Source: Tubiluchus corallicola
Lineage: Eukaryota > Priapulida > Priapulimorpha > Priapulimorphida > Tubiluchidae
Reading direction: 5' to 3'
DNA: 64,000 bases
Assembly (NCBI GenBank): GCA_030141605.1
Contig: JAQGDQ010000156.1
Coordinates: forward strand, 248,001 to 312,000
The position numbers and the translations under genes were made by a program. Positions 1,202-56,301 of the stretch are shown here, piece by piece. The notes under the pieces were generated by a model. That model did no database searches, was not told where the DNA came from, and was given only the letters and a program-made list of their open reading frames with translations. How positions within the stretch are numbered: the first letter of the stretch is position 1; every line of letters begins with the position of its first letter.

Positions 1202-3835
1202 TCAGGAGTGTTCAAGGACTTTAACAGAATTTTTCGATGCTCCGGGAAGTTGTTTAGATCCCACAGCCCTAACATAGCACACTTCGGCATCAACGCCTAT
1301 CTGGCAGAAAAAATCAAGCCATAACATTTGCTTATGTGACAACCTATCCCCAGGACCTTTCACCTCTGACACTTTAAACATCTTTTTCTCATTATTCCAA
1401 ACCACTAGGTCTGGCATGCCACCTCTGCAATGCTTATGGTCTTTAATAATTCGCTCTAGGATTTTTGCCAGTGTTTCTCCACCAATACAGGCAATCAGGC
1501 TATTTAGGCGCTCTGGACTTTCATAAAGATCCCAGCTTATCAAAGAACACTCTTCATCTGCATGTTTCTCCCAGCAAGAAGCTATTGTGTTAGTCAAGAA
1601 ATCTTCATCACTGTTAGCAATTTCACATAACCTAGTGTCAACTGCTTCTTTTCGATTTTCATAAAAACAGTCATAACGTAGATCTAGCGGACCGGATTGA
1701 TATGGACCACGAAATGCATCAGGAATGCCTGGCATGAATAGAATGTCCCAGAATAACAATCCAAGTATAGTGGTAAAAGCTGATCCCTCACCATGAACAC
1801 CATCAGTATATCCCAACTGCTGTTTGTACTGAATTATGCATAAATTTTCTACACCGCAAGCAACCATACCCTCGTTGCCCCCATCTTCATCACAATCAGA
1901 GGTAACAAAGACAGTCTTTCCAGGAACACCAGATGACATTACTTTTCCGAGGAATATACGTTCAGGTGGCTCAGAACACGGCATTTGCGGTACGCTGATC
2001 AAAAATTTATGCAAAGACACATTGCGCGGTGACTTGCAGATTTTTTCGGCCCTCAGTCTTAGCGCCAGTCGATGTCCTGTGCGCACATGTTTATCACTCA
2101 AGCCATCAATAATGGCTTCTAAAGCTCTATCAGGCTGCTTCAGATGCTGATCCAGATTCAACGCTAGTCTGTCCCACCAACGGCCTCTGGCTTCACAACA
2201 ATAGATAGATTGGCTTAGCAAATTCCTTAGCACATCTACAGCACTGCCGTAGTCACGCAACTTCTGCAGAGTTTCGACACCCAGATAAAGAACCTTAGTA
2301 TACAACGAACATGCTGTAAAACATCTAACCCAGGGTGGAAGTGACAAATCGTATTGCAAAATGTTTTTGTCTGTGTAGAATTCATTAAATTCTGCTTTTG
2401 CTTCTTGAAAGACATTCAACGCTTCAGAGAACTTGTGTTTATCAATGAGTCCAAGCAGGTCACTTGCACGAGTTAGAATATTCTGAAATCGCAGCAGTGA
2501 TGCCCTGTCTTGAAATATCCTGGCTTTTTTCTCTACTACATACTTAGGATACTGGATTTTGCCCAAATTAACCAAGAGCATGGAAAACAGTTGTTGAAGA
2601 CCAGGCTGAGCTTGCGGATCAGTATCATCTAAGGTAATACTAGTCAAATTAAATAACATTAGTACTCTCAGCAATGTCACCCTGGGCTCTTCAGCCACAA
2701 TACATAGTTTGTCAAGCAGCTTTTTAGCTTTTTTCAGCACAAAGTGTTGTCTGCAGCTGCCAAATACATTCCTCTGCTTCGTGCATTGTTCAAGGATAAG
2801 CTTAGTAAGCGATGACATCTGTAGTCCAGTAGCAGAAATGTGCAAATCTTTTGCAAGGTTGCGCAATTCTACACTTCCTAAAAGCTTGAGAGCCACGGTG
2901 ACGTCGCAAAGGTCTTTCTCGCTCAACAAAAATTGGTTTTTGATCAGCTCACTGATAGCGGGTTGCAAGTCATCGGCAATTCGAGGATAACAAATTTTGG
3001 ATACCTGAATCCAGCGGTACTTCCTTTGGAAAAGTCGCACAAACAGTTGTTGAGCTTTAATGGACAATCCATAAAATTTGTTAATCCAGCTCATATCTGA
3101 CTCATCAACTAACAGACGGTCATGTTCATCTTCTAAGACAGACCTCAAGACCAACAAAAAATTTTCGAGATAATACGGAACAGTTTGGTTTGTTGAATTA
3201 TCATTTTCATCGCGACAGTCACTGTCGTGTACACTTGACTCGACTACACTATCCAACTTTTCTAACAAAGCACTATCACAAATTTCACTCGAAGTGGAGA
3301 TTTCAGCAGTTTTTTCTGAATTTTTTTCAGGATTAACACAGTCAATAGTTTTAAATGTGACAGCATTTTGAAGGTTTTTATCACTTTCATACTTAACGAT
3401 GTTGTCCACATTTTGTGATACAGAATGAACGATCATATTTTTCGGTTTCTCAGTGTCCACTATTTGCTTTTTAGTAGACACCAGATTTTCCTCTATATTA
3501 CTTTTTACTGCAAGTTTTCTTTTCTTCCGTGAAAGTATCCTTCTGGAGTGGTTTTCTTTTGGCTGTGGACAATCAACAATGCCATTCACATGATAACGTG
3601 CAGTGTCACTTTGTTTAATAATGTTGCTCATCGTCGAATCTACCTGTGTCAAAGATTCATCACCACAGACACAGTCTAAAGATGCACTGGCGCTGTCTCC
3701 CGATGTGACACAGAAATCATCAAGATGCTTATTTATGGAAGACAATTTCACTTCTAAACCACAAGCAGGACAATTTATCATTCTTGGCACGTGCCTTTCA
3801 AGGCAGTCGAACAGTGATATTTGCCTAGATGCCAT
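1202..3835 (-). CDS. FAN1: Fanconi-associated nuclease 1 (FAN1), single coding exon
   Basis: Structure-specific 5' flap endo/exonuclease that acts in the nucleus with ubiquitinated FANCD2 in interstrand cross-link repair. The 877-aa frame starts at the first ATG (MASRQISLFDC); a TTG four codons upstream is open but is not a likely animal start. Residues 22-42 form a UBZ4 ubiquitin-binding zinc finger (C22, C25, H37, C42). A SAP-like DNA-binding segment lies near 318-350 and a helical TPR-like region near 400-640. The C-terminal VRR-NUC nuclease carries E683 in HGEGSAF, D809 in GGMPD, and E824 and K826 in EVKGPGD. The spacings (126 and 15 residues) equal those of the known human catalytic residues E834, D960, E975 and K977. 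The protein is shorter than human FAN1 (1017 aa), mostly in the disordered region after the zinc finger. The frame is intact, so it should be functional. A CTATAG 3' splice-like site upstream of the ATG allows a 5' UTR intron. Confidence 0.97.
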   Translation of the reverse strand: MASRQISLFDCLERHVPRMINCPACGLEVKLSSINKHLDDFCVTSGDSASASLDCVCGDESLTQVDSTMSNIIKQSDTARYHVNGIVDCPQPKENHSRRILSRKKRKLAVKSNIEENLVSTKKQIVDTEKPKNMIVHSVSQNVDNIVKYESDKNLQNAVTFKTIDCVNPEKNSEKTAEISTSSEICDSALLEKLDSVVESSVHDSDCRDENDNSTNQTVPYYLENFLLVLRSVLEDEHDRLLVDESDMSWINKFYGLSIKAQQLFVRLFQRKYRWIQVSKICYPRIADDLQPAISELIKNQFLLSEKDLCDVTVALKLLGSVELRNLAKDLHISATGLQMSSLTKLILEQCTKQRNVFGSCRQHFVLKKAKKLLDKLCIVAEEPRVTLLRVLMLFNLTSITLDDTDPQAQPGLQQLFSMLLVNLGKIQYPKYVVEKKARIFQDRASLLRFQNILTRASDLLGLIDKHKFSEALNVFQEAKAEFNEFYTDKNILQYDLSLPPWVRCFTACSLYTKVLYLGVETLQKLRDYGSAVDVLRNLLSQSIYCCEARGRWWDRLALNLDQHLKQPDRALEAIIDGLSDKHVRTGHRLALRLRAEKICKSPRNVSLHKFLISVPQMPCSEPPERIFLGKVMSSGVPGKTVFVTSDCDEDGGNEGMVACGVENLCIIQYKQQLGYTDGVHGEGSAFTTILGLLFWDILFMPGIPDAFRGPYQSGPLDLRYDCFYENRKEAVDTRLCEIANSDEDFLTNTIASCWEKHADEECSLISWDLYESPERLNSLIACIGGETLAKILERIIKDHKHCRGGMPDLVVWNNEKKMFKVSEVKGPGDRLSHKQMLWLDFFCQIGVDAEVCYVRAVGSKQLPGASKNSVKVLEHS

Positions 3836-4031
3836 GTCTTTATCCAAAAATATCTATAGATATTAAAAAAAGTACATTAGAAAACATTTTAGAATCATAA
3901 CTATAATTTACTAAATCAGCAATAGATCTATATCACTAGGAAAATTTAGTTTAAAAAAATGAAACAGCTACAAGCCACAAAAATATCATCATTTTATTAA
4001 AAATTAGTCAAACTCACTGGCTGTTGCAGTT
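3836..4031 (-). promoter_or_regulatory. FAN1 upstream region
   Basis: Short AT-rich stretch between the FAN1 start codon and a 316-bp repeat copy. It should hold the 5' UTR or a first 5' UTR intron. No TATA box or other core element was convincing, so only the position supports the call. Confidence 0.25.
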
Positions 4032-6830: not shown

Positions 6831-9800
6831 TTGCGTGAGTTTTCTACTTTTACTAACTTTTCCACTAATAATAATGATCCTGATAACTTTCTTCCTTATC
6901 AAGAAAGTAATTATTATAAACTGTCAACTCTATCTAGTCAAGATGACTTAGCAAATACCAGTAAGGATTTCACTTTTGTGCATTTTAATGTCAGTAGTAT
7001 AAACAAAAATTACACTAGTATGTTAGACGTTCTTTTACACTTTCAAAACCCTCCTGACATTATAGCATTAAGTGAAACCCGTTTAAAAAAAGATCATATT
7101 TTTCTCGTTTAAAAAAAGATCATATTTTTCTCACACCCTTACCTGGGTATCAATTTATTCGTGACGATTCTACAACCAATGCAGGTGGTGTGGGATTGTA
7201 TATCAGAAACTCTGTAATTTTTTCAGAAATGCCTAAATACAAAATACACAACTCAGACTGTAAAAATGGCTCCACAAACCGTATGCAACTGGAGAATATG
7301 TGGATTGAAATAGAAACTCCACCCAACATCAAAAACATTTTATTTGGAGTCATCTACAGGCACCCAAATACTAACCTTGAAGAATTTCATGAAGAACTAG
7401 AAAGCAAATTATCCTTAATTAACAGAACTAACAAATTTTGCTATATATGCGGTGACATAAATATTAACTTACTACATAGTGACAGCAAAACCTCAGTGAC
7501 AAATTATACAAACATGTTATTCTCTAATAATTTTGTGCCAATTATAACTAAACCAACAAGAATAACTCATCACACTAATACACTCATTGATCATATTTAT
7601 ACAAATGACCTCACCAACCACGTAACACCTGGAATTTTGCTTTATCAAGTAGCCGACCATCTTCCTATATTTGCAATTATAAAGCATACTAAACTGAAAA
7701 TGAAATCCAACAAAATCACCACAAGAAATTTTAAAAATTCAACTGAACAAAATTTTTTAAATAACCTGCAGCTAGAATTAGCCAAAATAAATTTTAATGA
7801 CTTGGAAACTAATGAGGGATTTAGCAAATTTAATGAAATACTCTTCAATGTGTTTAATAATCATTTTCCTTTGCAAACTCTGTCTAGGAAAGACACTATT
7901 ACATTTCAAAAACCATGGATCACTAAAGGAATTTTAAATAGTATTAAAACCAGATCACGTCTTTACAAATCACACAAACTCTCAAATAATTTATACAAAC
8001 AAATCTACTACAAATCCTACTCAAATAAATTAAATCATGTCAAGGAATCATCAAAAAAAACAATATTACACTGAAACATTGCAAAAACACAAGAATAACA
8101 TGAAAAAAACTTGGGAAACAATAAACAGTATTATAAAAACTGATCCAAAAACACGACAAACACCAAGTAAGTTAACAATAAATAATGTGGACTATACAGA
8201 TACATATGATATTGCCAGTAAACTAAATGAGTTTTTTGTAAATATAGGACCTGACATGGCTGCCAAAATACCTAAACCTAACGTTAATTTTACTGACTTT
8301 TTAAAAAAACCCTAACCCAAATTCTTTTTTCATTAATCCTATTACTGAAAATGAAACATGCACACTTTTAAACACACTTAATTCAAACAAATCACCAGGA
8401 CCACAAAATATACCAATATCTTTTTTTAAATCTGCAAGTCAAATTATTTCACCAATACTCACATTACTGTTTAATAAATCGGTTAATGCTGGAACTTTTC
8501 CAAATATATTAAAAATAGCAAAAGTTATTCCTTTATATAAAACTGGCTCTCCACATGAACCTGGCAATTACAGACCAATATCTCTCTTATCACCAGTATC
8601 AAAAGTTTTTGAGAGTCTAATTTACAAGAGATTATACCAGTTTGTTGTGAAAAGTAATATCCTAAGTAAATACCAGTTTGGTTTCAGAAAAAATTATTCA
8701 ACTGCCCTTGCTGTATCCGAATTAATAGACACGATCTCTCTAGACACTGACAAAAAATTACTGAATTGCGGAATATTTTTAGACTTATCAAAAGCTTTTG
8801 ATACCGTACAGCATAGTATACTAATAGCCAAATTAAACCATTATGGCATCAGAGGTCTACCTTTGCAACTAATTCAATCATATCTAACTAACAGAAAACA
8901 ATTCATATCTATTAACAATGTATCATCAGACTATAAACACATATCGTGTGGAGTGCCACAAGGCTCTAATTTAGGACCTCTTCTATTCTTAATTTATATT
9001 AACGATCTTCCCACATGCAGCAACTTTCGAACCCGAATATTTGCCGATGACACTAATTTGTTCATGTCTGACTCCAATATAAATAATCTGCAAAAATCTG
9101 TTAATGACGAAATGAAAAAATAGACCTGTGGATGAGGGCAAACCAGCTATCAATTAACTACAAAAAAACCAAATTTATGATAATCAACAATAATCAAATT
9201 AACAATGCTAATAATCCAAAATTTCATATTATAATAAACAAACACAAAATTGAAGAAACAGACAACATCAAATACTTGGGCCTACTCATTGATAATAAAT
9301 TAACATGGGAACCACATATAAAACACATAACATACAAATTAAGTCGAATTACTGGAATAATTTTAAAAGTAAGGCACTACGTTGACCAATATATTCTGAA
9401 ACTTCTATATAATTCGTTAGTTTTCCCTTATTTACAATATTCCATCTTAACATGGGGTACAGCTTTTGCATCAACTCAAAAATTAATACAGACACAACAA
9501 AACAAAATAGTAAAATTAATAACTTTTGCTCGCAAATATGATCATGCTACACCATCGTTCGTAAAATTAAAAATTTTAAAAGTAAGAGATATTTACAATC
9601 TTGAGTTGTTCAAATTTATGTATAAATTCAATGCTGGTTTATTACCCGAACTTTTTAGAGAATATTTCACTAATGTTTCTGATATACATTCCTACTTCAC
9701 AAGAGCTGCTTCTAATGAACAGTATTTTGTGGAGAGATTTTTTACCCGACATGGTTTCAATAGCTTAAAATCACGAGGAGTTAAATTATGGAACTCGTTG

Positions 9801-9887
9801 CCAAAATATACCTTTGGCGGTAGCTTATTTTCTGCTTCCAAAAAATACACAAAATTCTTACTAAATGAATATACCTGTAATACATAA
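6831..9887 (+). pseudogene. LINE ORF2 (endonuclease-reverse transcriptase), frameshifted
   Basis: The product would nick target DNA and copy the element RNA into it. Endonuclease motifs in order: FNVSSINKN, ALSETRL (catalytic Glu, about 7065), GGVGLYI (7184), FGVIYRHPN, CGDININLL (7450) and DHLPIF (7657). Reverse transcriptase motifs: NKSPGPQNIP, PLYKTG..NYRPISLL, FGFRKNYST, LDLSKAFDTVQHS, GVPQGSNLGPLLFLIYINDLP and FADDTNLF (catalytic DD near 9050). The frame breaks at a 26-bp tandem duplication (7080-7131), in the A run near 8052, in the A run near 8306 and in the A run at 9115. The remaining protein reads cleanly between breaks, up to the stop at 9887. Confidence 0.9.
7080..7131 (+). repeat. 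26-bp tandem duplication disrupting the LINE endonuclease
   Basis: The unit GTTTAAAAAAAGATCATATT plus TTTCTC occurs twice back to back without mismatch. Because 26 is not a multiple of three, the second unit shifts frame and puts a TAA in the endonuclease just after the catalytic SETRL motif. Confidence 0.9.
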
Positions 9888-23734: not shown

Positions 23735-25360
23735 CTATAAAACACCACTGACATAATCCACTTGACCACTTTCACTCCACCTTGCTGATTGCGACGACTC
23801 CGTCAGACCTGCTCTGTGGTTCAAGTACATCATTATCAACTTCACACAAAGGAACACTAACGGAACACCCAGCTGCATTAGGTAAAACGACAAAGATGAA
23901 ACTGCGTTCACATTAAAAGTCAAAAAGAACACAATGATTGTCACAAATGGATAAAAGCCAAGTTTTCCGGCTTGCTGTAGGTGACTTCTACCACCGAATG
24001 CTATCTCTGACTGCAGGCAATCACCAGGGTCAAACAGACCAACAACCCACAAACAACTCATGAAAAAGGAACTGAGGAAAATACAGACACAATTCATCTG
24101 GATTGATATCATCTCATTCCGCACTTCCACGTCATGTGGATTTAACCTGTCAATATCCAGAGTTCCAAACTCACTAGCCAACTTAAATCCAAGTGGCAAT
24201 ATGCCAATGCAGCACAGACTCAACGAGTTCAAAAACAACATTGTACCTGTGACTTTTTTCACCGAGTACAGCAAGCCATGATGAATAAACCACAATGTTC
24301 CAACTGTTATAAAAACTCCACCATAAGCTAAGAACACAGATGCATCAGTTTGAAGAGCAGCAATCAGCCCACCTGCTTTCTCCACTTCCTCTTCTGATGG
24401 CACGCTTGTGTCACAAATGTCCAAAATAATAATGGTGGCAACAATGGAGAACACACCATCAGAAAATGCCTCCAGTCTCTCTTTGACACAGAAACTAGTC
24501 AAGATGGAAAAATGGTTTCGCAAAAGTGTTTCATCATCTTCCTTATGTATAAAATGATTCCAGTACTTGTAAACTTTCTTCGTGCTCCACTTGATAAAAT
24601 TACTGAATGCTGCAGCCACTAACAACCAAAATGCCACATTCGGAGCAAATATGGCAATGAATATAGCCAACAGGCAAATGACTAGTTGCGTTCCAGTGTT
24701 CCAGTAAAGGATCGTCTGTATGCTGTCGCAAAATGGATGATCGCGGATGGACGGTTTCATTACCAGTCGACTACAGCGAAAAACATGCCAGATAAAAACT
24801 AACTGCAGAGCATCTATCACAACAAATAAACAAGCGTAGAGAATCACAGAAAAAATATCCACATTGTACATCGCTAACAATGTGAAAGCAAATGGAAGAA
24901 ATGTTATTGCCATCATCTCTGCAAGGTTGATCAGTACAATTAAATCATCTACATTTTCAACCAGCTCAAAAAGTCTGGCATGATTTGACCAAACCTCTAC
25001 CACTGTCAAAAAACACAACACATAAATTAAAATCTTTGGTATAAGCGTGCTGTAGGTAAAATATAGATTCTCATCACCCTGAATTTCCGAATGCGTAATA
25101 GGAACAATCATTAGAGTTGCTACAATTGCACATATAGCATCTGCGAATGCTTGGACTCTCCCTGAACTTGCTACTGTCTCTTGTAAACCTAATCTCTTGG
25201 CAATGTCAATGACATCATGTGCATTTGATGCTTTCAAACCAGTCATAAACTGTTTGAATGTTCTGTTTGTGTGCTCATTTGTAGGGATTCCTAATGTACT
25301 GTCTTCCGGCACCTCCACTTCAGAAACACTAAACACAAATTCTTCATCAGAATCAGCCAT
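23735..25360 (-). CDS. TMEM175: TMEM175 endosomal/lysosomal potassium channel, 541 aa
   Basis: Leak-type K+ (and H+) channel of late endosomes and lysosomes that sets luminal pH and membrane potential. It has two homologous six-helix repeats. Repeat I opens with R68-xxx-F72-A-D74 (RVQAFADAICAIVATLMIVP) and repeat II with R295-xxx-F299-S-D301 (RLEAFSDGVFSIVATIIIL). The isoleucines forming the constriction in the human channel are kept as I79 and I306. Repeat I has FAD instead of the usual FSD. The acidic N terminus (MADSDEEF) resembles a sorting tail. The ATG at 25360 was chosen because TATTTTCAG, a good splice acceptor, ends one base before it, implying a 5' UTR intron; the open frame upstream has only weak in-frame starts. 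All 12 helices lie in one exon. Confidence 0.95.
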   Translation of the reverse strand: MADSDEEFVFSVSEVEVPEDSTLGIPTNEHTNRTFKQFMTGLKASNAHDVIDIAKRLGLQETVASSGRVQAFADAICAIVATLMIVPITHSEIQGDENLYFTYSTLIPKILIYVLCFLTVVEVWSNHARLFELVENVDDLIVLINLAEMMAITFLPFAFTLLAMYNVDIFSVILYACLFVVIDALQLVFIWHVFRCSRLVMKPSIRDHPFCDSIQTILYWNTGTQLVICLLAIFIAIFAPNVAFWLLVAAAFSNFIKWSTKKVYKYWNHFIHKEDDETLLRNHFSILTSFCVKERLEAFSDGVFSIVATIIILDICDTSVPSEEEVEKAGGLIAALQTDASVFLAYGGVFITVGTLWFIHHGLLYSVKKVTGTMLFLNSLSLCCIGILPLGFKLASEFGTLDIDRLNPHDVEVRNEMISIQMNCVCIFLSSFFMSCLWVVGLFDPGDCLQSEIAFGGRSHLQQAGKLGFYPFVTIIVFFLTFNVNAVSSLSFYLMQLGVPLVFLCVKLIMMYLNHRAGLTESSQSARWSESGQVDYVSGVL

Positions 25361-25877
25361 TCTGAAAATATAAAAGCAGTATTTCATTGTTTTAGTAACA
25401 ATTTTATTATTCACAACTCAGAAAATATTGTATGTTGTAGTTATATTCATTTAATTAACAGCATTTTCGTTGTATGTATGACTTATGCTATATATGCAAT
25501 CATAAAGTATATGTTATGTATGATATGTATTATTACTATTAATTACATACATGAAGAGACTAGAAAACTGTCATAATTTCAGTGTTTCTGATGTTCACCA
25601 TAATGCTTTGTTTCCCCAAAGCCAAAAGTCGCTTAGTCAGGCCACACCTAACTTATCCAGCATTACATTATTTCATTTAGGTGCAAATGGATGAAAATGC
25701 TAAATTAAAAAATATGACATAAAAGATTATTATGACTGAAACGTCAAAAAACTTATTACTACGAAGTAATGAGATGCAATGTTAACTGATTCAAATGAAC
25801 CTACATAGTTAACTTAATGATATTAATAATCCATAACTAGGATAAAGCATAACTCCATAATAATATATCTACTATTA
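25361..25877 (-). promoter_or_regulatory. TMEM175 5' intron or promoter region
   Basis: AT-rich sequence upstream of the splice acceptor that precedes the TMEM175 start codon. The non-coding first exon was not located. No core promoter element was convincing. Confidence 0.25.
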
Positions 25878-32206: not shown

Positions 32207-33839
32207 GAATGTCACTTCTGACAAGTGGCAAACTGAACCCGTTAACATCTAGCCGATAGAGCTCAAATCAGACTTTTATCCCATGATCCTAGAGTAATGA
32301 ATTCCACCTTAGCGATTTGTTGCAATAAATGCTGCAAAATTCACGAGTGCAAACTTAGTAAGCTCAAGATTTCTCAGCTAATATCCTGAATTCCCGATAA
32401 TTTAAAACCCGGGTAAACTCTAATCTGGGTTATGTCCACTTTTGTGACCTCTCAATGACCTCCAGCTTCCTGTGCACTAGTTCTTTGATGTCCCACGGAC
32501 TCCCACCCAGCGAATCCCTGACACAGTGGCCTTCAGCCCAGTGGATTCCAGTCACTGGAACTCTGAGCCGCGATCTCCAACTCAATGAGTTCTATTAAAT
32601 TTTCTGAGTCGAACTGCATTGAAAGTTTGTTGCAGAATACGTTCCATACAAAATGGAATCTACTTTGGTTTTTAAATTTGTGACGACGTTCTAAATGAGC
32701 TCCTGTTTAATTAGTTCTAATGTTGAGACAACAATCCCTCGCCATGGCGGATTAAGAGTTATAGAGGTCCATAGGCGTAACAGGTAGGGATTTGGAGTCC
32801 AGAATGGAACCTCTGAAACCAATGCATTTCATGCAACTTAGCAATGTTTGAGTCCAGTTGTGGAATTCTCGATGCTTAAATTGACTAAAATTTTAAATTG
32901 AGAATTGAAAGCTTGGCTCTTGAGCTATTTACTTTTTGCTACAATAAGGGCCTAATTTGGCTCTACAGAATGAAGCTTCTAGGCACCTGATGGATAATCT
33001 GCCACAACCACCTTTTAGCGATCATTAAGTTAAAGAGCCTCATCTTGTAGGTTTTAATTACGGCTGATCTGCGGCTCATTGAACCCGATTGATTTTTTCG
33101 CCTATTTCGCCGTGCGACAAGATGGAAGGACAGGACACTGAGGATAGAACAAATTTACCCCAGTCATGCACTTGTTTTATTTCGTGGGTTAAGTGGCCGT
33201 GATGACATGACGTAGACGTGCGCAATAAAACTACCCGTCCCAAACTGTTTATGGCGAATTAAATAAGCAATTCAAGGGGGCGAACAGCTGAATATTTATG
33301 TATTGGCAGCTGGATGTTGACATGTTGTTCTGACGCATGTGTCTGATGAGATGCATCTTAACGTTAATATCAATAATTAAGGCACGTTTATCACCACAGC
33401 TGCATTATGAATGCGTACACATGTAACGGAAATAGTATCCACTCGGTTACTCGGAATTTTACGTTAATGACTTTCGGGGTTTTTTGTTTAATCTTGTTGC
33501 AGAAGACCTGTTTTTAAGAAGATTTCTAATTGGGGCAGGCTGTTCAAAGAATGACCAGATTTCTTTTTTGCTTCTCGTTTTTCGTTTTCTCTAGTGTTGA
33601 ATGTCCCGTTCTTGTTTTTTGGCCTGGTTTGCCATTTTTCTTTTGATATGTGGGGCTAGTGGGTCTCAGACTGCCGTTCTCAAAATCATTTTTATAAAAT
33701 TTGACTGATTTCTATAGAAATTTGTTGTGCTGTAGTTACGATAAAACTGAAACAAAAGTTAATTTCAACAGAAGACTTGAGGTGAACGAAATATAAGAAT
33801 GTCTGGTAATTAACAGTGCCCGCCTTCCTTAATAGCAAA
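32207..33839. other. No gene seen
   Basis: The first 400 bases hold diverged relatives of the 45-bp unit. The rest is unstructured. Confidence 0.35.
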
Positions 33840-47027: not shown

Positions 47028-50000
47028 TTAGTTAGCTGTGCAGGTTCCTATGAGGTGCTCCCAGCCAACTGGTTCTGGCTTGTCTGCAGTTGGAACAAAT
47101 TTGGTTATCTTGCATTGAAGACTGTTCCCGCATTTGCCTGCAACGTTGTGCGGGCCACCGCAAGGTTGACCGAGTCCCTACAAATATTTACAACTTATGT
47201 CAAACACGATTTTACATGTAAAAACTAAAAGTACTATGTTGTTTTTAACTTTATTTATATTTACCTATAACTTTTAACTATATTTAGTTTATTAGTAAGA
47301 TTTTTACTCATTCTTACCAAGGATTAAAAAAGTATAGCAAAATTTTCTTTTTGGACACATATTCCTTCTCTTATAATATTAGTGATTGCCATGTGTGTGA
47401 ACTATACTCTTGAAATATTTTAATGGTAATTGTAATTATTTTTTAGCTCAGTAATCAGTTTTTGTAATAGACACAATTAACATGTTTATTCGTTGTATAA
47501 TAATGCATGTAAGATAGTACCATGGTCTCACATTTCGTTATCATCTATGTTTACTATGTAACTTTGCAATGGGTCACTTTACTATAGGTGGCCTGTACGT
47601 TATGTGCCGGTCTTTTCACCTTGTACAGGTCTCCCTGGCCAGTTTGTTGTGTTGTATTTTTTTATTATTATATTAATTTGTTATGGCTAAAATAAATGAA
47701 TAAATATCAAATACCAAATATTAAATTAACTTTTCTAGACGACATCAAGGAATATAATGGCGTGAAGCTTCGCTTACTAAGCTTAGGCTAATTGTATTTT
47801 ACCTCTGATTGTTATCATGTGCAGACAGTTTAATATAAATAAAAGGAAGTGAGCTTGCTATTGAGTACATTTTAAACAGAAATCGCGCTCTTCTTAATTC
47901 TTGTACAAATTATTTATTTTAGAACACGTTTTCATTTACTTCAACGTTTCATTTTCTAATTAGTTTTATGCTTTGAAGCTATAATTGGAATGTAGTAATT
48001 ATAAAAGTAATTATGAAATGATTCATATAATCGCTGTAGAAAAACGTTGAGCGACGCAATATTCGTGGTAATAGTAGCGGAACCTAGCCACTGGGGGGAT
48101 GGGGGGGGGGGGGGCTGGAAGCAGCTTCTCTAAAGAAGACCGAAGAGAAGAAAATGGACGTGGTGGAGATGAGGATGTTGAGATGGATGGTGGGAGTAGC
48201 AAGAAGAGATAAAATTAGAAATAATAATATCAGAGGAACAGTAAAAGTAGTGGAAGCCTCGCGAGATTGCGATGGTATGGACACCTGAAAAGAAGAGTCG
48301 GTGAAGATCATGTGGGAAGGGAGGTCATGGAAATGGAAGTGCTGGGAAATAGAAGAAGAGGACGACCCAAGCGGAGATGGATTGAATGTATTAATGGAGA
48401 CCTTAGAGAGAAGAACATAAATGAAGAGATGGTCAACAACAGGAATGCGTGGAGAAGACTCATTCACAACGGCGACCCCGCATAGGGAAAAGCCGGGAAG
48501 AAGAAGAAGTAGCGGATATTATATTCTCTGACTACGTGTACTAGTTTAGCATCATATATCCAGTATTTCTCCTCAAGCCAAAAGTTCTTACCTGAAGACA
48601 AACATCGCAGCAGTTACAGCGGTCTTTGCCAACACCTGCTGAACATCCACTGACAGCTGGACATGCTTCTTTATACTCCTCCTTACGAACTCTGAAGTCT
48701 TTGTAGAAACAGGTCTGGTCATCGCAGCATGGATAGCATGGTTGATTCAAAATGGCTGTACATGTCCGCTCATCACAGCACGGATCGCAGCTTCTAAACG
48801 CTGATGCCACTGCTGCCAAACTATATGAAAGATTCAAATGCATTTTAGGCACGGCTTATTTAATAAATAATGCGAATTTTGTACGAACGACCTTAAAGGA
48901 AGACAGGATAATTTTTCATGTACTACACCATTTTCAAGTACGGTAAAAAGTATACATTTTAACAACAGTAATACTGCAAATGCGTTTCTGATAATTAAAT
49001 AATAGATTAAAATCTTAATTAACGGCGGGCGAGCCCAATTAGTAATGACATCACAAACTAACATAAATTTTCTAGATCAAAAATATTCCACGAGCGTGTT
49101 GAACGCGTTTGCGAAAGCGAAAATTGAAGTGCAGTGGTACTGTAAGATATATAGTGTATTGTAATAAAGCTAGGCAAGTTTTACGATAAAAATTCAAATT
49201 TCAAATTTACAACTGTACTCGCTGCATGAGCTGTCGAACGTGTGTAGTTCGTCACAAACTAACGCAACTGAACTGAGAGGTACAGCACTTGTGAAATGCA
49301 TGTAACAGCGAAGAACTAGTGACGCGAACGCGAATTGCGTTTGCGTGGTAATAATTCTTTCATGTAAGGCATTCTTTAAAAAGTAGTATGTTTTAAAAGA
49401 ATAGGCTCTTTTGACCTACAGTTTAACGTTGGGCCCGGTTTTGCTTAAATGTACTCCTTTGTTATTTTTATACCATTCCGCAAAGTTCTGATGAAGTTTG
49501 ATGACACTTGCAACACCACTAAGGATTACTTGCATGCATGCTGCATTAGAGTTGAAGCTGACATTGAGCAAAGCTTAGAAACAATTTGTTTCCAAACTAT
49601 AAAATTTCAGTTATAATGAAACCCTTTAAACTTCGCAAACATAATGATGTTTTACTAATACAACGACTACTGTATTCCGCATCCAGTGCAAGGCCTAATC
49701 AGTGTAGATGGTATGGTAGGCCCGGAATCTGGCTCATTGTCAAGGAAAAGCCTCCAAAATGAATGTCTGGACATATTGAGATGCCGGGCCAATGACAGTT
49801 ACCCATCCGTTCACTTACAAGTTTTGCGTTATTTAATTTAGGCCGTTTAATCACTTGGCTATATACGCCTGTTCTTATTACTAAACTCAGACGAAAGAAA
49901 CAAAGTACAGAGCTTTCTGAAAAGACTATTTACTTAATATTTTACATTGTAATTTTCATGATCCAAATGGATTATTATATGAGGATATGAGGTCTGTGTA

Positions 50001-50058
50001 AATGTTTTTGATGAGTTACATACCTTATAAAAACAACAATGTAGAGAACGTTGTTCAT
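47028..50058 (-). CDS. Secreted cysteine-rich protein with IGFBP/neuroparsin-type domain, three exons, 137 aa
   Basis: Exons on the minus strand: 50058-50024, 48820-48592 and 47177-47028. Introns are GT-AG (donors GTATGT and GTAAGA) and phases join exactly. Residues 1-19 form a signal peptide (MNNVLYIVVFISLAAVASA) whose codon 12 is split between exons 1 and 2. The mature part has 18 cysteines. Two similar blocks come first, CDPCCDERTC and CYPCCDDQTC. The second half is an IGFBP N-terminal-like module: CPAVSGC, CNCCDVCLQGLGQPCGG, GKCGNSLQC and GTC, i.e. the GCGCCxxC..GxxCGG....C..L.C...C pattern. Single-domain relatives include arthropod neuroparsins and molluscan perlustrin (known families). 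The role here, extracellular signalling or growth-factor binding, is inferred. A TATA box sits 90 bases upstream. The extra N-terminal CC blocks are unusual. Confidence 0.8.
47560..47715 (+). mobile_element. Possible LINE 3' end in intron 2 of the IGFBP-like gene
   Basis: GTAACTTTGCAATGGGTCAC, GGTGGCCTGTACG, CTTGTACAGGTCTCCC and CTGGCCAG, then a T-rich run and AAAATAAATGAATAAATATC. Hairpin-like CTGTAC/GTACAG and an AATAAA tail resemble the other LINE 3' ends here. No coding part is present. Confidence 0.4.
48093..48113. repeat. Poly-G run
   Basis: Runs of 6 and 14 guanines separated by AT, at the left edge of the RTE-like fragment. The length is prone to sequencing error. Confidence 0.85.
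48120..48509 (+). mobile_element. RTE-type LINE 3' fragment with (GAA)n tail, in intron 2 of the IGFBP-like gene
   Basis: Frames read KKMDVVEMRMLRWMVGVARR, then RLRWYGHLKRRVGEDHVGRE and RRRGRPKRRWIECINGDL, ending NAWRRLIHNGDPA stop. This is the well-known C terminus of RTE-family endonuclease-reverse transcriptases. The stop is followed at once by GGGAAAAGCCGGGAAGAAGA and a short GAA tail, the usual compact RTE end. It is 5'-truncated with one frame change near 48255. It lies in an intron antisense to the host gene. Confidence 0.85.
48892..49065. repeat. Dispersed repeat R3, copy 2, in intron 1 of the IGFBP-like gene
   Basis: Matches 42892-43066 end to end in the same orientation, about 70 bases upstream (in gene direction) of the exon-2 acceptor. 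Confidence 0.85.
49492..49690. repeat. Diverged direct repeat R4, copy 1
   Basis: Shares GTTATAATGAAA, TTCGCAAACATAATGATG and TTTTACTAATACAACG with 50360-50545, in order. Divergence is high, so the duplication is old. Confidence 0.55.
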
Positions 50059-50146
50059 CGCTACAGTAATCTGAATGGCTTCCTCTCACTGTAACAAAAA
50101 TACAAGTTTGTTGCTGAGTAACACATTCAAACCGTTGTGCTCTCAC

Positions 50147-50153
50147 TTATATA
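50147..50153 (-). promoter_or_regulatory. TATA box of the IGFBP-like gene
   Basis: Minus strand TATATAA in the context GACTATATAAGTG, about 90 bases upstream of the ATG at 50058. It would place the transcription start near 50120 and give a 5' UTR of about 60 bases. Confidence 0.55.
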
Positions 50154-51485: not shown

Positions 51486-51958
<473 letters not shown>

Positions 51959-53159: not shown

Positions 53160-53590
53160 AATGTAATGAGCACCTTACCTTATCTTACCTTAGCCTTACT
53201 TACCTTACTTTACTATAGTTTACCTTACCTTAACTTACCTTACTATACTTCACCTTACCTTACCTTACTTTAGTTTAGAATATTAGCATACCTTACTTTA
53301 CCTTACCTTAGCTTATCTTAGTTTACCTTACCTACCTTACCTTACCCTAAATTACCTTACCTAACCTAACCTAACCTTATCTTACCGTACCTTAGTTTAG
53401 CTTACCTTACCTTACCTTACCTTACCTTACCTTACCTTACCTTACCTTACCTTAGCCTACCTTACCTTACTTAGGTTAGCTTAACTTACCTTACCTTACC
53501 TTTCATTACCTTATCTTCCCTTACTTACCTTGCATTAGCTTACTTCAGCTTACCTTTCCTCATCTCACCTTACTGCACGTTACCTTACTT
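53160..53590. repeat. Degenerate (TTACC)n pentanucleotide array
   Basis: CTTACCTTACCTTACC for about 430 bases, cleanest at 53398-53450, with scattered TTAGC, TTATC and TTACT variants. The unit is five bases and lacks the GGG or AGG of animal telomere repeats. Confidence 0.95.
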
Positions 53591-55310: not shown

Positions 55311-56054
55311 CTGTATGAATTATGTTTCTTGAACATATATTCATATGCTCACTTTTTAATATAGCCTCTACTTTAAATGGCGGATTCGCCTTGCCAAGCA
55401 AATTAACGATCACTAATCCTTACGAGACTTCCCTTCAACAAGTATGTGGGGTTTCTTTACTCACAGAACAGAGGCTTATCTATGTGTAATAAAATTATCC
55501 TGGAAATTGCTGTTTGTTTGTTTTACAAACTCTAAATGTGCGCGTTTATAATATTTGTTTGGTTATGGATGTTGGTTTTGCTGGCCTGAGGCTGGGGAGC
55601 ACCGTGTGATGTGATTGCTTCCTGTGTGTGGTTGGTTTCAATTACGGGGCACTATGTGTTTTCGACGCGTTAGCTTGTAGTCACCTATCGATGAATTTAT
55701 CGTAGCAAATTGAAAATGTACATAACTAACTAAGAGCCAGATGGAACACAACAGTTAAGGTAGATAACTAAACAACCATTGCATGGTATAGTTTGCTTTT
55801 ACTTAGGCGAAATTTTCTTTCATCAGCTTTGTTTCCTGAGTCTCTTTCTAGACAATTTTATACGTAACTTTCTTAGCATCACGTCACCGTCTTTTCTATG
55901 GAATATTTTTCTCTTGCGAGATAGCTGTTCCTTGAAATTTTATGAAAATCTAATTATGATTTCTATTTTCACTAATTATGACTAGTATTGTTTCTTGTTA
56001 AAAGTGGTGTTTATTGGTGATACTGCTTGTTAAAAACTTCTCTATAATAATAGT

Positions 56055-56301
<247 letters not shown>

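Follow-up and report, generated by a model that had tools for sequence, protein, structure and literature searches.

A probable hidden three-exon gene in Tubiluchus corallicola for a putative secreted single-IGFBP-domain protein with an added cysteine block

The stretch of Tubiluchus corallicola DNA analyzed here, 64,000 nucleotides and referred to as the window, is C1901:248001-312000 within a 343.5-Mb assembly of 2,344 contigs. Three minus-strand exons at 50058-50024, 48820-48592, and 47177-47028 join through GT-AG introns into a predicted 137-amino-acid protein with 18 cysteines, at the coordinates originally given. The coding part of exon 1 (50024..50058) is only 35 nt long, encodes MNNVLYIVVFI plus 2 nt as the likely core of a signal peptide, and runs into the donor GTATGT. 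Intron 1 (48821..50023) is a phase 2 GT-AG intron with the acceptor ATATAG, and exon 2 (48592..48820, donor GTAAGA) carries the presumed end of the signal peptide, an extra cysteine block, and the N-terminal half of an IGFBP domain. The 1,414-nt intron 2 (47178..48591) is GT-AG in phase 0 with the acceptor TTGTAG, and the coding part of exon 3 (47028..47177) supplies the C-terminal half of the domain (GLGQPCGGPHNVAGKCGNSLQC...GTC) before a TAA stop. The original reading of a hidden three-exon gene with a tiny first exon held up, and the signal-peptide-like hydrophobic start, MNNVLYIVVFISLAAVASA, gives the product a secreted look.

Among 15 junction combinations tabulated, only two kept the frame open from exon 2 on into exon 3: the predicted one and a form shifted by 1 base at exon 3. 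The shifted junction (48820/47178) uses an acceptor without AG and loses the IGFBP-like peptide of exon 3. A TATATAAG box (50146..50153, minus strand) starts at 50153, 95 nt 5' of the ATG, and is a TATA box by consensus match only; CTCAGC at 50118 is a weak Inr-like element. The pyrimidine tracts of both acceptors are weak (0.60 and 0.45 of 20 nt), which was counted against the reading as a SIBD gene. The nearest ATTAAA and AATAAA signals lie 445 and 477 nt past the stop, with weaker poly(A) variants (AAGAAA, AATACA, and AGTAAA) the only ones closer.

Several other features share the window. An uninterrupted 881-amino-acid open reading frame on the minus strand (1202-3847) combines FAN1 HTH, TPR, and VRR-NUC regions and corresponds to Fanconi-associated nuclease 1, and a 559-amino-acid frame on the same strand (23735-25414) has two stretches matching the lysosomal potassium channel TMEM175. 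A LINE-type element on the plus strand (7190-9887) contains a reverse transcriptase frame and an endonuclease-like frame, the latter under the Pfam cut-off. Within intron 2, a CT-rich segment at 48080-48510 (minus strand) resembles a transposon fragment. Long simple repeats occupy 51486-51955, 56044-56290, and 53172-53588 and are of the types (TC)n, (ATA)n/(AAC)n, and a diverged ACCTT array. A search of the whole window against Rfam returned nothing at gathering score. Elsewhere in the assembly, C2218 and C1387 (L057 and L058) hold uninterrupted receptor-like frames of about 390 amino acids with weak 7tm_6 matches, three of them on C2218; by eye, these weak odorant-receptor family matches look like gustatory-type receptors. 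Judged in the same way, introns, repeats, and receptor-like genes have an arthropod-like character.

The identity of the encoded domain was assessed by profile search of the joined protein. The IGFBP family (PF00219) scored 29.8 bits over residues 62 to 110, against a cut-off of 28, and was the only Pfam family found at an E value of 1 or less, in keeping with the IGFBP-type domain that had been proposed. A margin of just 1.8 bits was counted against the SIBD gene reading; a trimmed form of the protein scored 30.3 bits. The match crosses the exon 2/3 junction, which falls after residue 88, and neither exon 2 alone nor exon 3 alone matches Pfam IGFBP, so splicing itself creates the match. Shuffles of the mature protein that kept every cysteine in place gave no IGFBP match at an E value of 1 or less (0 of 10), indicating that the match does not reflect mere cysteine spacing. 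Among solved structures, the best match was SIBD-1 (PDB 3zxb, E value of 1.1e-6; 3zxc, 1.9e-6), followed by IGFBP-4 at 0.039.

Neuroparsins are small secreted cysteine-rich proteins that have been likened to the IGFBP N-terminal domain, and they were the comparison offered at the outset. That comparison was not supported: the neuroparsin Pfam family (PF07327) was absent among matches of the joined protein at an E value of 1 or less, IGFBP was the only family returned, and the close match was SIBD-1. Judged by these searches, the right comparison is SIBD rather than neuroparsin. Neither a Kazal nor an Ig domain was found in the joined protein (Pfam, E value of 1 or less), and the protein thus does not follow the IB-Kazal-Ig plan of IGFBP7/IGFBP-rP1.

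Relatives were sought throughout the assembly with protein queries and Pfam IGFBP. Far from being a lone oddity, the gene has company in 12 further loci of the same split-exon type: C725, C1229, C1955, C2163, C2050, C854, C726, C107, three copies on C840, and C194, where exon 3 only was seen. Single-exon IGFBP genes are present on C810 and C36 (above the Pfam cut-off) and on C1583 (below it); the last matches the C725 query at 3e-4 and is named here as a relative, outside the 13 split-exon genes. Matches on C1915 and C1924 carry in-frame stops without a convincing exon, and C2237 falls below the Pfam IGFBP cut-off; none of these was kept as a family locus. On C840, three near-alike SIBD-like copies of exon 2 lie within 25 kb, with exon 3 seen for two of them, as in a young-looking tandem array.

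Of the 13 split-exon genes, 10, the window gene among them, could be read in both exon 2 and exon 3. In each of these, intron 2 fits a phase 0 position at one shared residue, immediately ahead of G(P/L)G or GEN, and has an AG acceptor; the donor appears to be GT in seven and GC in three (on C1955, C2050, and C2163), and intron lengths range from 199 to 2,980 nt. Borders were placed by eye, guided by the homologous residue and ahead of any look at the splice sites, so the agreement in position is partly built in and the splice dinucleotides are not.

Conservation of the domain was followed in two sets of alignments. In seven-row alignments of the individual exons, all 12 family cysteines are invariant (eight in exon 2 and four in exon 3). 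In a 10-row alignment of nine source-genome sequences plus SIBD-1, 11 of the 12 are invariant, the second being variably placed, and every row matches PF00219 at an E value of 0.01 or less. A PDB profile search with this alignment reached IGFBP7 at 3e-7; its match to SIBD-1 is circular, SIBD-1 being one of the rows. The window protein has CNCCDVC at the position of the family motif CGCCxxC, keeping the cysteine spacing and replacing the glycine, a departure that was counted against the SIBD gene reading; SIBD-1 has CDCCPVC. A family tree of 14 rows (13 split- or single-exon rows from the source genome plus SIBD-1, leaving out C107, C194, and the third C840 copy) had none of its 11 inner branches starred, which was counted against the SIBD gene reading. 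The window gene sits on an end branch of 3.36, with a top identity to any row of 41%.

The weakest element of the gene model is its tiny first exon, and the in-frame ATG at 48843 offers an alternative start. Two first-exon candidates were found in the 6 kb upstream of exon 2, and the originally predicted one is alone in having a hydrophobicity of at least 2.6 (its best 9-residue value is 2.98). No candidate with the stricter values it reaches turned up when the neighboring 1.5 kb was shuffled 200 times; at looser thresholds over 6 kb, at least one candidate appeared in 10 of 60 shuffles. Upstream of five of six paralogs tested there is exactly one candidate hydrophobic mini-exon, 44 to 47 nt long with a good donor and a best 9-residue hydrophobicity of 3.09 to 3.31, and at least one in-phase AG precedes exon 2 in all six, several having more than one. 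No candidate first exon was found upstream of the sixth paralog, C2163, which was counted against the SIBD gene reading. Shuffled upstream stretches gave candidates in 11 (C725), 0 (C1229), 1 (C1955), 0 (C2050), 0 (C854), and 7 (C2163) of 60 trials each. A candidate at one paralog, C725 most of all, could therefore be chance, and the whole set hardly could; a tiny first exon is probably a family trait.

Cysteines in the N-terminal half fall into two adjacent blocks. Block 1 (CDPCCDERTCTAILNQP, amino acids 23 to 39, 48739..48789, minus strand) begins CDPCCDERTC and is an extra four-cysteine block. Block 2 (CYPCCDDQTC..., amino acids 40 to 56, 48688..48738, minus strand) holds the triplet of cysteines that opens the IGFBP domain, together with an additional cysteine. 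Its counterparts in the family alignment are CTGSCDETTC at C36, CGQCDPKRC at C810, CYPCCPDKAC at C725, and CPECRPELC in SIBD-1, and this alignment with the first triplets of the family leaves only block 1 as extra. The original prediction placed doubled CxxCC blocks before an IGFBP module; block 2 belongs to the module itself, and a single block has been added.

Block 1 is absent from C725, and a genome search with residues 20 to 71 returned the window alone; since that search examined a single first-pass candidate and also missed C725, a diverged copy elsewhere could have been missed. At the DNA level, the two blocks are identical at 24 of the first 30 nt and at 27 of all 51 nt, a pattern that would fit either an old duplication or divergence of the downstream part. 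As many as 132 other 30-mers of the window (0.2%, microsatellites included) match as well, with 24 of 30 identical at this offset, and DNA alone therefore does not prove tandem duplication. The argument for duplication rests mainly on the residues that the blocks have in common, C-x-PCCD-x2-TC, and a partial duplication of 17 codons within exon 2 would be the simplest origin of block 1.

Six-frame translation of the window gives 13 occurrences of the motif C..CC....C, more than chance would produce: two in exon 2, one at 32321 (plus strand), and 10 in a TGY microsatellite near 56.2 kb. Its doubled form occurs four times, in this gene and, we infer, in the TGY microsatellite. Markov sequences of equal composition contained a mean of 0.37 single motifs, with no doubled form in 100 sequences. 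Of 15 family rows, two (the window gene and C725) have both the extra cysteine of block 2 and another in the next loop, and 13 have neither. The two genes may have inherited this pair once, which makes it a hint, rather than proof, of a seventh disulfide.

Three other readings of the locus were weighed against this evidence. The gene could have two exons, with translation starting at ATG 48843 just 5' of exon 2 (MHLNLSYSLAAVASAFRSC...) and exon 1 unused; the frame is indeed open through the acceptor, and the ATG has the context TAAAATG. Such a start would yield a best 9-residue hydrophobicity of 1.82, well below the values of the three-exon form and of the five paralog candidates, the paralogs have an in-phase acceptor at the corresponding place and, in five of six, a hydrophobic first-exon candidate, and exon 1 is preceded by a TATA box, all of which make the two-exon form improbable. 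A decayed, nonexpressed family copy would account for the strong divergence (end branch and 41% maximum identity), the weak acceptors, and the lack of a nearby AATAAA. Such decay is hard to reconcile with three open exons, 12 of 12 family cysteines retained, and two GT-AG introns, and we regard a pseudogene as very unlikely.

Less likely still is a reading in which the two CxxCC blocks make up a disintegrin-like module of their own, N-terminal to the IGFBP domain. The suggestion comes from a phmmer search with exon 2 alone, in which the sole match was the disintegrin chain 1tej, and from a similar CC-x4-C spacing; the 1tej match has an E value of 6, which is chance level, no Pfam disintegrin family was found for exon 2 at an E value of 10 or less, and the counterpart of block 2 in the paralogs is the opening cysteine triplet of their IGFBP domain. 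Taken together, the open spliced frame, the domain family, and an exon plan common to the paralogs argue for a real SIBD gene. The locus is very probably a protein-coding three-exon gene for a secreted SIBD-family protein, a judgment that covers the gene and its family and excludes the ligand.

Beyond the source genome, one stretch in viral_contigs matched the search pattern and did not encode a relative, and none of the PHROGs matched. Among 17 pattern matches in genome_contigs, one was scored as encoding a relative, by way of a 14-residue match to query residues 86 to 99 (around GLGQPCGG) in a Latescibacterota MAG contig (L005:5001-5042). It could mark a bacterial IGFBP-like domain or be coincidental, and it was set aside as chance.

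SIBD-1 of the spider Cupiennius salei (3zxb and 3zxc) resembles the window protein in its single IGFBP domain and, over the aligned region, in CxCCxVC and GxGxxCGGPxxVxGxCxxxxxC and in the final GTC. SIBD-1 has 12 cysteines, compared with 18 in the window protein, and it lacks both the front block and the extra cysteine pair. Within the source genome, the C725 paralog (L017) shares the exon plan of the window gene and has CYPCCPDKAC as well as the additional cysteine in the loop; unlike the window gene, it has no block 1, and its exons 2 and 3 encode 14 cysteines. Crustacean proteins (Eriocheir SIBD, L. vannamei SIBD, LvIGFBP2, and LvIGFBP3) are likewise described as twelve-cysteine proteins of the IGFBP superfamily that have a single IB domain, and no doubled block is mentioned in the description consulted (PMC7866140). 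The window gene thus belongs to a known family and varies its cysteine plan. Word searches of open full texts turned up no earlier description of the added block.

If the gene model is correct, exon 1 would encode the hydrophobic center of a signal peptide that is cut off near ASA|FRSC, leaving a mature protein of about 118 amino acids. The mature protein would fold as an IGFBP N-terminal domain with a six-disulfide ladder (1-5, 2-6, 3-7, 4-8, 9-11, 10-12), an order that follows the disulfides modeled for shrimp LvIGFBP1 (PMC7866140). In the window protein, the predicted bonds are C40-C80, C43 or C44-C82, C49-C83, C71-C86, C94-C110, and C104-C134. The spare member of C43/C44 could form a seventh bond with C65, and the extra block (C23, C26, C27, and C32) could form a small N-terminal cap held by two disulfides. 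A partial tandem duplication of the first triplet that gave a SIBD protein both this two-disulfide cap and a seventh core disulfide, producing a variant with nine disulfides whose ligand-contact face is altered or joined by a second one, is a tentative and on balance unlikely proposal.

The product would act outside the cell as a partner-binding protein of hemolymph or hemocytes. Single-IB-domain proteins are reported in both crab and shrimp, and binding of insulin or IGFs is attributed to many of their invertebrate relatives (PMC7866140). For LvIGFBP3, the results of the same paper give high expression in hemocytes, and its abstract describes expression of both single-domain genes there as slight, a discrepancy counted against the SIBD reading (PMC7866140). 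SIBD-2 is one of the genes with raised expression in TGase+ shrimp hemocytes (PMC9513592), and a title cited in PMC6468893 places SIBD-1 in spider hemocytes. From these reports on relatives, insulin-like peptide binding or a hemocyte role in immunity or coagulation emerge as the likeliest functions. By analogy, the chance that the partner is an insulin-like peptide is close to even, and an immune or coagulation partner is a plausible candidate at somewhat under even chance.

The window gene sits in an expanded single-IGFBP-domain family with a common three-exon plan. Understanding of the family is not majorly changed, because expanded SIBD-like sets have already been reported; Hydra, for example, is reported to have ten additional remote paralogs (PMC3509713). 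The locus illustrates that an exon-split, easily missed cysteine-rich gene can be recognized from sequence, and exon-split SIBD-type genes are likely under-annotated. If the nine-disulfide variant were real, it would represent a step from a single-domain toward a one-and-a-half-domain binding protein. The added block in any case offers a natural test of how extra disulfides affect an IGFBP-type binding surface.
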